Below are positions 15,581 through 27,517 of a DNA stretch of 42,120 bases, in pieces (within the stretch, counting starts at the first letter, position 1; every line of letters begins with the position of its first letter). The notes under the pieces were generated by a model. The model was not told the DNA's origin. It was given only the letters and a program-made list of their open reading frames with translations, and ran no database searches. The DNA is taken from positions 1 through 42,120 of the forward strand of contig JAILLI010000047.1 of the NCBI GenBank assembly GCA_024693225.1. The letters run 5' to 3'. The DNA comes from Lachnospiraceae bacterium. Its GTDB lineage: Bacteria > Bacillota > Clostridia > Lachnospirales > Lachnospiraceae. A program made the position numbers and the translations under genes.

Positions 15581-16870
15581 ATGGCAAAGAAGGAAGTGCA
15601 GAAGGAAGACAGCGGCAGGGAGCTTTTGATGGCCCTCGACATACTTGAGAAAGAGAAGGACATAAGCAAGGAGACCATGTTCGAGGCTATCGAGACATCG
15701 CTCCTTACTGCCTGCAAGCAGCATTACGGAAAATCCGACAACATGAGGGTCGAGATAGACAGAGAGACCGGACATTTCAGGGTTTTCGCCAAGAAGACTG
15801 TTGTCATGAAGCCTGAAGACAATGTGACGGAGATCGCAAAGGAAGAGGCCAAGAAGATAGATAAGGGAGTAAGGGTCGGTGATGTCCTTGATGTTGAAGT
15901 GGAAAGCAAGGATTTCGGCCGTATAGCAACGACCAACGCCAAGAACGTCATCCTTCAGAAGATCCGCGAAGAGGAGCGTTCCGTTGTGGTCAAGACCTTT
16001 AAGGACAAGGAACGTTCGGTCGTTACCGGTGTCGTACAGCGTTATGTAGGCAAGAACGTCTGCATAGACTTAGGCAAGGCGGATGCATTTCTTCCCGAAT
16101 CAGAGCAGATACCAAGGGAGAACCTGCGGATAAATGACCGTGTAAAGGTTTATGTGGTAGAGGTCAAGGAAAATAACCGCGGGCCCCGTATCTCTGTCTC
16201 GCGTACACATCCCTTTCTGGTCAAGTGCCTGTTCGAGGCTGAAGTATCAGAGATCAGGGACGGCAGCGTGGAGATAAAGTCCATTGCCCGTGAAGCGGGA
16301 AGCCGTACCAAGATGGCCGTGTGGTCCAACAATCCGGATGTGGATCCCGTCGGTGCATGCGTCGGTATGAACGGTACAAGGGTCAATGCGGTTGTAGATG
16401 AGCTGCGCGGCGAGAAGATAGATATCATATGCTGGGACGACAACCCCGGTATCCTTATAGAAAACGCACTTTCACCTGCAAAGGTTGTATTTGTCATAGC
16501 GGACAGCGATGAAAAGTCAGCCAAGGTCGTGGTTCCCGACGACCAGCTGTCACTTGCCATAGGTAAGGAAGGACAGAACGCCAGACTTGCGGCCAAGCTT
16601 ACCGGATTTAAGATCGACATCAAGTCCGAAACGCAGGCCAAGGATACTCCGGGCTTCAGGCTTGAGGATTATTATGATGAAGACGAGTATGAGGAAGGCG
16701 AATATATAGAAGGTGAATACGCCGAGGGCGAATATGCCGAAGGTGAGTATGCCGAGGGCGAATACGCTGAGGGAGAGTATGCCGAAGGAGAGTACGCCGA
16801 AGGTGAGTATGAAGAAGAGCCTGCAGAGGATGCAGCAGGTGACGAAGAGGCGGCCACAGGAGAGGAATGA
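15581..16870 (+). CDS. nusA: Transcription termination/antitermination protein NusA with acidic repeat tail
   Basis: ELLMALDILEKEKDISKETMFEAIE N-terminus, S1 and KH motifs (DPVGACVGMNGTRVNAVVDELRGEKIDII, LAIGKEGQNARLAAKLTGFKIDI), C-terminal (EGEYA)n tail. Confidence 0.97.
   Translation: MAKKEVQKEDSGRELLMALDILEKEKDISKETMFEAIETSLLTACKQHYGKSDNMRVEIDRETGHFRVFAKKTVVMKPEDNVTEIAKEEAKKIDKGVRVGDVLDVEVESKDFGRIATTNAKNVILQKIREEERSVVVKTFKDKERSVVTGVVQRYVGKNVCIDLGKADAFLPESEQIPRENLRINDRVKVYVVEVKENNRGPRISVSRTHPFLVKCLFEAEVSEIRDGSVEIKSIAREAGSRTKMAVWSNNPDVDPVGACVGMNGTRVNAVVDELRGEKIDIICWDDNPGILIENALSPAKVVFVIADSDEKSAKVVVPDDQLSLAIGKEGQNARLAAKLTGFKIDIKSETQAKDTPGFRLEDYYDEDEYEEGEYIEGEYAEGEYAEGEYAEGEYAEGEYAEGEYAEGEYEEEPAEDAAGDEEAATGEE
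16690..16815 (+). repeat. Tandem 15-bp coding repeat (EGEYA pentapeptide) in the nusA 3' end
   Basis: Roughly 7-8 consecutive GAR-GGN-GAR-TAY-GCN units, mostly synonymous variants. Confidence 0.9.
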
Positions 16871-25865: not shown

Positions 25866-25903
25866 GCTCCCCGGTCATCAAATTTTGCCGGGGAGCTTTT
25901 TTT
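25866..25903 (+). terminator. Rho-independent terminator after pnp
   Basis: GCTCCCCGG(25866-25874)/CCGGGGAGC(25888-25896) followed by TTTTTTT. Confidence 0.9.
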
Positions 25904-26011
25904 ATACCAACTGTAATTGTCTGACAATTGCATAAAAAAACGTATGTATATTGTGAAGGGCATGATAACATTTCCTACGTTATAAATGCGAAAATGACAA
26001 TAATCGACAAG

Positions 26012-26020
26012 TTATCCACA
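26012..26020 (+). promoter_or_regulatory. Perfect DnaA-box match TTATCCACA
   Basis: Exact match to the consensus TTATNCACA in an AT-rich intergenic gap. Confidence 0.6.
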
Positions 26021-26166
26021 AGATTGCAAAATATTATAACAAGACATAATAAATGATCACAGAAGAATAACATGCGTCATAAAATCAGTAACTATGCGTT
26101 ATTTATGATCTTGGCATTTTACATAATGCTTTTTTTCGAACGAACTTTTGGAGTCGAGTCCTAAAA

Positions 26167-26175
26167 TGTGGATAA
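26167..26175 (-). promoter_or_regulatory. Perfect DnaA-box match (TGTGGATAA on +)
   Basis: Exact reverse complement of TTATCCACA, in the same gap. Confidence 0.6.
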
Positions 26176-26253
26176 AACGATCAAATTATGTGAAATTCCG
26201 ATAATTGTGTGCAGTGAAACAATTATTCGCACAATTATATTTGCCCTCTTTTC

Positions 26254-26282
26254 TTAACAATACACGCCTTATATGGTAGAAT
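26254..26282 (+). promoter_or_regulatory. Candidate promoter of deoB
   Basis: TTAACA - 17 bp - TAGAAT, extended -10 TGG. Confidence 0.6.
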
Positions 26283-26320
26283 TAATCGGTTATGTGGTTG
26301 GTTTGCGAAAGGAGGCGTTC

Positions 26321-27517
26321 ATGTCAAAAAGGGTCATTCTTATCGTAATGGACAGTTTCGGGATAGGAGAAGAGCCCGATGCAAAGGATTTTGGCGATGA
26401 AGGGACCAATACACTTCGTTCCTGCACAAGAAGCGAGGCATTTTCGGCCCAAAACCTTGCGAAGATGGGACTTCTTAGGATCGACGGGATAGAGACGGCA
26501 AGAAAGCTTCCTGAATCCGATATCATTCCAACGGGAACTTACGCAAGACTTCGCGAAAGATCAATGGGCAAGGATACGACGATAGGGCACTGGGAGATCG
26601 CGGGCCTCATATCACCCAAGCCGCTCCCTACATATCCGAACGGATTCCCGGATGAGGTAATTAAGGAATTTGAAGAAAAGACCGGCAGGAACTTTCTGTG
26701 TAACCTCCCTTATTCCGGCACCAAGGTCATAAACGACTACGGTGACGAGCATGTAAAGACAGGCGCTCTTATCGTATATACATCAGCCGATTCCGTGTTC
26801 CAGATAGCCGCACATGAAGATATAGTGCCGCCGGAACAGCTGTACGACTACTGCCGTACGGCGAGGGAAATTCTCGTTGGGAAGCACGGCGTCGGAAGGG
26901 TAATAGCGCGTCCTTTTATCGGCACGAGCGGAAACTATACAAGAACATCGAGAAGACACGATTTTTCACTGCTCCCGCCCAAAGATACGATGCTTGACGT
27001 ACTTAAGGATAACGGGAAGGACGTAATCGGAATAGGAAAGATACACGACATATTTGCAGGCAAGGGCTTGACGGAATATACATATACCACGGGTAACGAA
27101 GACGGTATCAATAAAACGATGGAGTACCTCGATAAGGAATTTGACGGGCTTTTGTTCGTAAATCTCGTTGATTACGACATGCTCTACGGCCACAGACGCG
27201 ATATCGAAGGATACGCTAAGGCCGTGGCGTTCTTTGATGAAAGACTCCCGAAGATCGTTGAAAAGCTTCGCGAGGACGATATCCTCATGATCACGGCCGA
27301 TCACGGATGCGATCCCGCGTATACGAAAACGACGGATCATACGAGGGAGTATGTGCCGTTCATATGCTGCGGAAGAGATTTTATGCCCGCGAAGGGCACA
27401 AAGGGAGGTAATCTCGGGACGAGGCCGACGTTTGCGGATATTGCGGCATCGACGCTTACGTACCTGGGGATGCCCGAAGATCAGATCGCGCGCGTTTCCG
27501 GCGAGAATATATTGTAG
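26321..27517 (+). CDS. deoB: Phosphopentomutase
   Basis: VILIVMDSFGIGEEPDAKDFGDEGTNTL, GKDTTIGHWEIAG, MITADHGCDPAYTKTTDHTREYVP. ORF opens at 26273; ATG 26321 has an AAAGGAGG SD. Confidence 0.96.
   Translation: MSKRVILIVMDSFGIGEEPDAKDFGDEGTNTLRSCTRSEAFSAQNLAKMGLLRIDGIETARKLPESDIIPTGTYARLRERSMGKDTTIGHWEIAGLISPKPLPTYPNGFPDEVIKEFEEKTGRNFLCNLPYSGTKVINDYGDEHVKTGALIVYTSADSVFQIAAHEDIVPPEQLYDYCRTAREILVGKHGVGRVIARPFIGTSGNYTRTSRRHDFSLLPPKDTMLDVLKDNGKDVIGIGKIHDIFAGKGLTEYTYTTGNEDGINKTMEYLDKEFDGLLFVNLVDYDMLYGHRRDIEGYAKAVAFFDERLPKIVEKLREDDILMITADHGCDPAYTKTTDHTREYVPFICCGRDFMPAKGTKGGNLGTRPTFADIAASTLTYLGMPEDQIARVSGENIL

Follow-up and report, generated by a model that had tools for sequence, protein, structure and literature searches.

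A candidate extra-oriC DnaA-binding site with fixed box geometry is conserved upstream of deoB in one genus of Lachnospiraceae

The pnp-deoB intergenic region

The window (the whole stretch of 42,120 nucleotides that was analysed) belongs to a host genome (G000) that is a draft MAG of 224 contigs, 85% complete and 6.8% contaminated. pnp ends in a strong intrinsic terminator on the forward strand (25867–25903; CTCCCCGG / CCGGGGAG stem and T run) and is followed, as the first-pass annotation had described, by non-coding AT-rich DNA up to the ATG of deoB (phosphopentomutase; 26321–27517, forward strand). The terminator forms the upstream border of the element described here and lies outside it, as does the probable sigma-A promoter of deoB (TTAACA and TAGAAT separated by 17 bp, with TG; 26254–26282, forward strand). 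The AT content was 67.6% from the pnp terminator to deoB and 70.5% between the two DnaA boxes of the region, in comparison to 50.6% for the window.

The two candidate DnaA boxes, TTATCCACA at 26012–26020 on the forward strand and its reverse complement TGTGGATAA at 26167–26175 (thus TTATCCACA on the minus strand), were confirmed as the only perfect matches to the TTATNCACA consensus within 42 kb. They lie 155 bp apart from start to start, with 146 bp between them. A scan for one-mismatch boxes, which the first-pass annotation had also proposed, gave 32 elsewhere in the window against 29.9 expected; this is chance level and indicates that the window overall is not box-rich. Across the host MAG, perfect TTATCCACA sites numbered 30 in comparison to 11 for the reversed control.

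Distribution of the element

A DNA search of 99 relatives recovered the gap in most members of the window's genus, and pnp-deoB gaps were taken from these relatives together with the deoB loci of GTDB genomes. An element of approximately 310 bp upstream of deoB was found in 33 of the 37 genomes of the genus, a sample consisting mostly of rumen Lachnospiraceae MAGs. The box-pair pattern itself matched 29 of the 37 genomes, with 0 matches for the reversed control, and variants were recognized in four further genomes (G002, G003, G009 and G011) by profile search or direct reading. Among the genomes outside the 33, G007 is cut off by a contig edge, the DNA query found nothing in G030 and G032, and G012 retains the gap without the element. 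Box conservation in related genomes, on which the first-pass annotation had made its proposal depend, was therefore borne out at a fixed spacing. TGTGGATAA is nearly invariant among genus members and is preceded by TTATCCACA or a one-mismatch form of it, with a degenerate box 1 in roughly half of the species.

The element was not found in the neighbouring genera examined, and no such boxes were present in the pnp-deoB gaps of Butyrivibrio and other genera with pnp beside deoB. A family-wide search with the pattern returned oriC, murC-dnaD and coding matches, none of those identified being at pnp-deoB. One profile match outside the genus (L178) was judged to be chance, as it lies in coding sequence of a spoIIIA-like operon, at a locus chosen for its boxes. 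On the pnp tree the element is confined to one clade, with one gain and one loss (G012); the tips L050 and L061 are scored as negative where the loci are too short, and their genomes (G008 and G011) carry the element further on. In G004, G008 and G011, 2.5–5 kb of other DNA separates pnp from the element, which still adjoins deoB, so that deoB is its constant neighbour even where genes have been inserted after pnp.

The host MAG also contains a second copy of the locus on contig C111, where the rpsO-pnp-deoB-prfC region is duplicated at 78% nucleotide identity over pnp-deoB and the boxes are again exactly 155 bp apart. An assembly duplicate was rejected as the source of this copy; it is most simply explained as a second congeneric species contaminating a bin with the level of contamination given above, and it was used as such in the comparisons.

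Geometry and sequence conservation

The outer boxes were 153–159 bp apart in 31 of 33 distinct gap sequences and exactly 155 bp apart in 23, giving a standard deviation of 1.0 bp, whereas the stretch separating box 2 from the start of deoB ranges from 107 to 446 bp (standard deviation 60.6 bp). Shuffled gaps produced 0 such pairs in 6600 trials against 29 of 33 observed, and the box pair is not a chance occurrence. In the 23 gaps with exact 155-bp spacing, conservation among 9-mers is highest at the two boxes, with 1.76 bits per base for box 1 and 1.94, the maximum of the element, for box 2, in comparison to 0.73 for the rest. In clades 2 and 3 of the genus a third (middle) box precedes the last one by 48 bp, bringing the count from two in the window to three or four in these clades. 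Between clades the non-box sequence is largely rewritten while the boxes and their spacing are kept, which argues that selection has acted to preserve the sequence of the DnaA boxes and the distance between them.

Several other blocks are conserved. The palindrome TTGTCWGAYAA lies 94–97 bp before box 1 in most relatives (in the window TTGTCTGACAA, 25917–25927) and recurs, in places degenerate, 211–214 bp after box 1; TTATTCGCACAATT at 26223–26236 is the degenerate counterpart in the window of this right-hand palindrome of clades 2 and 3. In the three genomes scanned, the 13-mer palindrome TTGTCWGAYAATT occurs at this element only. Clade 1 keeps ACGTTATAAA, TTTTACATAAT, TTTCGAACGNAYWTTTG and AAATTATGTGAAATTCCGATAATTG. 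In the window, ACGTTATAAA (25977–25986) includes CGTTATAAA, which is invariant among 14 close relatives, and an AT-rich spacer with weakly conserved ATTAAAACA..A.ATAATAAA (26021–26116; 73% AT over 26021–26120) leads from box 1 to TTTTACATAAT (26117–26127), which is invariant over TTTTACATAA in 14 relatives and occupies the position of the middle box of clades 2 and 3. These are followed by TTTCGAACGAACTTTTG (26134–26150), with TTCGAACGnA..TTTG invariant in 14 relatives, and, beyond box 2, by AAATTATGTGAAATTCCGATAATTG (26183–26207), recognized in the alignment of close relatives. The clade 1 block TTTCGAACGNAYWTTTG / TTTCGAACGAACTTTTG resembles the Firmicutes LexA (SOS) box with one mismatch; it is not conserved as such in clade 2. 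Fixed geometry combined with these additional blocks suggests that the element is organized as one nucleoprotein complex, in which the palindrome TTGTCWGAYAA may mark a partner other than IHF or Fis. IHF is not present in B. subtilis (PMC13220808).

The strong conservation of blocks that are not DnaA boxes (TTGTCWGACAA, TTTTACATAAT and TTTCGAACG) raises the alternative that TTATCCACA is bound here by a protein other than DnaA and that the whole block serves segregation, recombination or nucleoid organization. TTTTACATAAT read backwards resembles the XerD arm of dif sites, which would fit a recombination role; a Firmicutes dif-site pattern gave no match in five genomes, at the locus or elsewhere. 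We consider this alternative very unlikely, as the 9-mers match the DnaA consensus exactly, the third DnaA-box match added in clades 2 and 3 is not predicted by another protein, and the locus shows no terminus-like GC-skew switch.

Inverted boxes are complementary and could pair as an RNA stem, and the region could accordingly represent a structured non-coding RNA or conceal a small gene. This is extremely improbable. The consensus fold consisted of eight box-box pairs only, none of which covaried (0/8), and changes in box 1 (ATATCCACA, TTTTCCACA and TTATCAACA) were never compensated in box 2. Folding energy was ordinary (z of -1.6 and +0.2) and there was no Rfam match, and an RNA element was rejected on these results. 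A hidden gene was likewise rejected, since the longest frame open in all 21 species does not exceed 11 codons.

Comparison with the chromosomal origin

The first-pass annotation had interpreted the region as an origin-like or DnaA-regulated locus, noting that dnaA and dnaN, which usually adjoin oriC in Firmicutes, are absent beside it. In the host MAG these genes are located on contig C205 in the standard order gyrA-gyrB-recF-dnaN-dnaA-(rpmH)-rnpA-yidC-jag-mnmE-gidA-gidB-parA-parB, with an oriC of their own. The dnaA-rpmH gap of C205 is the point at which GC skew reverses sign; this gap contains a single perfect TTATNCACA box along with several imperfect ones. The boxes read in this oriC (locus L034, 8860–9220 and 7311–7493) are the imperfect TTATCCACT, TTATCCACC, TTTTCCACA and TTATCAACA (twice) and a single perfect TTATACACA, such that the canonical oriC has fewer perfect boxes than the pnp-deoB element.

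No change in GC-skew sign was observed at the pnp-deoB locus. Skew was positive over the 42-kb window and over 231 kb and 120 kb in two relatives (G009 and G025, respectively), with the locus well inside, and no switch occurred within 108 kb on either side of the element in the draft genome of G009. Positive skew on both sides indicates that one replichore runs through the site. The element shares with its own oriC the presence of DnaA boxes in AT-rich DNA. It differs in that its boxes are perfect, that it lacks a skew switch and that its sequence is not significantly similar to that oriC, where the boxes are mostly imperfect and lie at dnaA and at a skew switch.

Taken alone, AT-rich DNA flanked by DnaA boxes, and a composite multi-motif design with fixed spacing, would be origin-like and would favour an active ectopic or second replication origin. 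Against this stand the dnaA-linked oriC with its skew switch, the uniform skew around the locus, the lack of significant common sequence, and the highly expressed nusA-infB-rpsO-pnp genes, which would meet one fork head-on. A plasmid or phage origin was also rejected, as plasmid and phage records held no sequence similar to the element. An active second origin is thus scarcely credible, and the element is not an origin. The origin part of the first-pass proposal consequently fails on skew, and its DnaA-titration or DnaA-regulated part is strongly supported by the conserved, fixed-spacing boxes.

Possible relationship to deoB expression

The main alternative to a role in the control of DnaA is that the element is a deoB promoter switch, with DnaA as a transcription factor and the boxes and partner sites forming a looped region that would couple deoB and the genes downstream of it to the state of replication. 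deoB acts in nucleoside and deoxyribose metabolism. The deoB promoter follows directly on the element, which stays with deoB where pnp has been separated from it, and a constant place just upstream of deoB is also what would be expected of a deoB regulator. A further conserved DnaA-box cluster occurs upstream of dnaD-dnaI, a position at which autoregulation would be plausible, and DnaA has a known transcription factor role in Firmicutes (PMC4447404; PMC8203912).

This explanation is possible but, in our estimation, somewhat unlikely. Box 2 lies at widely varying distances from the deoB start (standard deviation 61 bp) in comparison to the fixed box spacing, indicating that the complex is not phased with the promoter, and neither overlap nor phasing of the boxes with the promoter was found, box 2 lying approximately 80 bp before the -35 in the window; any regulation of deoB would then have to act from a distance. 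Furthermore, no connection between deoB and DnaA is apparent, and the pnp-deoB arrangement exists in other genera that lack the element. Since the complex keeps its internal spacing but shifts freely with respect to the deoB promoter, we favour a function centred on DnaA over one in the regulation of deoB.

A putative DnaA nucleoprotein site outside oriC

The reading that we prefer, with moderate confidence, is that the element is a lineage-specific extra-oriC DnaA nucleoprotein site that holds or remodels DnaA and so would help to set the timing of initiation, in the manner of datA/DARS or the B. subtilis clusters. Conservation strongly supports its identification as a DnaA site at the level of sequence. 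The genus has a canonical dnaA, and the mostly imperfect boxes of oriC make perfect boxes elsewhere candidate high-affinity sites. In the mechanism that we propose, a putative DnaA-binding site of the chromosome was gained once at the base of the genus and has been kept since; DnaA would occupy the two outer inverted boxes 155 bp apart, together with the middle box in many species, and would form one nucleoprotein complex that includes at least one further protein at the unique palindrome. Such a complex could hold or remodel DnaA away from oriC and thereby influence when replication initiates. Among the points against DnaA control, the two to three boxes here are fewer than in datA (five) or DARS2 (six), roughly half of the species have a degenerate box 1, no Firmicutes site is known to change the nucleotide state of DnaA (PMC13220808), and a deoB regulator would also be expected just upstream of deoB.

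The element has features in common with several known systems. Like the DnaA-box clusters (DBCs) of B. subtilis, a Firmicute without datA/DARS, it is an intergenic group of several DnaA boxes outside oriC (PMC5295017; PMC13220808). For the DBCs, capture of free DnaA and a delay in initiation have been proposed (PMC5295017; PMC13220808), and initiation occurs earlier when six such clusters outside oriC are deleted in B. subtilis (PMC5295017). Clusters of the DBC type are also oriC-proximal and occupied by DnaA in vivo. Unlike the DBCs, the element has two to four boxes with a strict 155-bp outer spacing and extra motifs, and is found at one locus (pnp-deoB) in one genus; no B. subtilis cluster at pnp-deoB is described in PMC4447404.

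The DnaA boxes of E. coli datA and DARS are conserved together with their spacings (PMC4585315), and conserved boxes at conserved spacing in a non-coding locus are likewise what the element presents. datA resembles it in being non-coding and away from oriC, its box number and spacing being conserved and needed together with a DNA-bending protein (PMC4585315). datA differs, in a comparison by description, in having five boxes, an IHF site and other neighbours. DARS1 and DARS2 resemble it in their intergenic core of three DnaA boxes with conserved spacers and sites for other proteins (PMC4585315). Clades 2 and 3 of the genus have three boxes, as in the DARS core. The DnaA-box core of DARS is compact, whereas the outer boxes of the element lie 155 bp apart. 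As a class, datA and DARS carry binding sites for IHF (and Fis) and stimulate DnaA-ATP hydrolysis or the release of ADP.

A stronger version of this proposal concerns a lineage that apparently lacks YabA, a DnaA regulator in B. subtilis. YabA (PF06156) was found in none of the 37 genus genomes, with B. subtilis and L. lactis controls giving matches, and PF00308 in the host MAG matched DnaA and DnaI only, with no Hda-like third match. DnaA and a palindrome-binding partner held in fixed geometry might then change the nucleotide or oligomer state of DnaA, making the element a DnaA-remodelling locus and an independently evolved counterpart of datA/DARS; we regard this version as unlikely.

The analysis suggests a candidate site of chromosome-replication control of a kind that is little known in this bacterial group. 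It is compact, strictly conserved and genus-wide, combining perfect boxes, fixed geometry and a palindrome unique in the three genomes scanned. Its importance lies in that B. subtilis is described as having neither datA nor DARS, the balancing of DnaA-ATP and DnaA-ADP there being described as unknown (PMC13220808), and that the candidate site is present here in bacteria where YabA was not found.

Additional observations

The murC-dnaD gap upstream of dnaD-dnaI contains two tandem DnaA-box pairs of the TTATCCACATTATCCACA type approximately 150 bp apart in both genomes compared, namely the host MAG (L035, contig C220; 4644–4661 and 4790–4807) and G025 (L248, contig C7). DnaA boxes in this gap also occur in other genera of the family (L187 and L286), and DnaA control of the helicase-loading genes through these boxes is possible. 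Separately, the predicted NusA of the window carries a terminal tandem acidic repeat (EGEYAEGEYAEGEY...) at the end of its frame (16690–16850).
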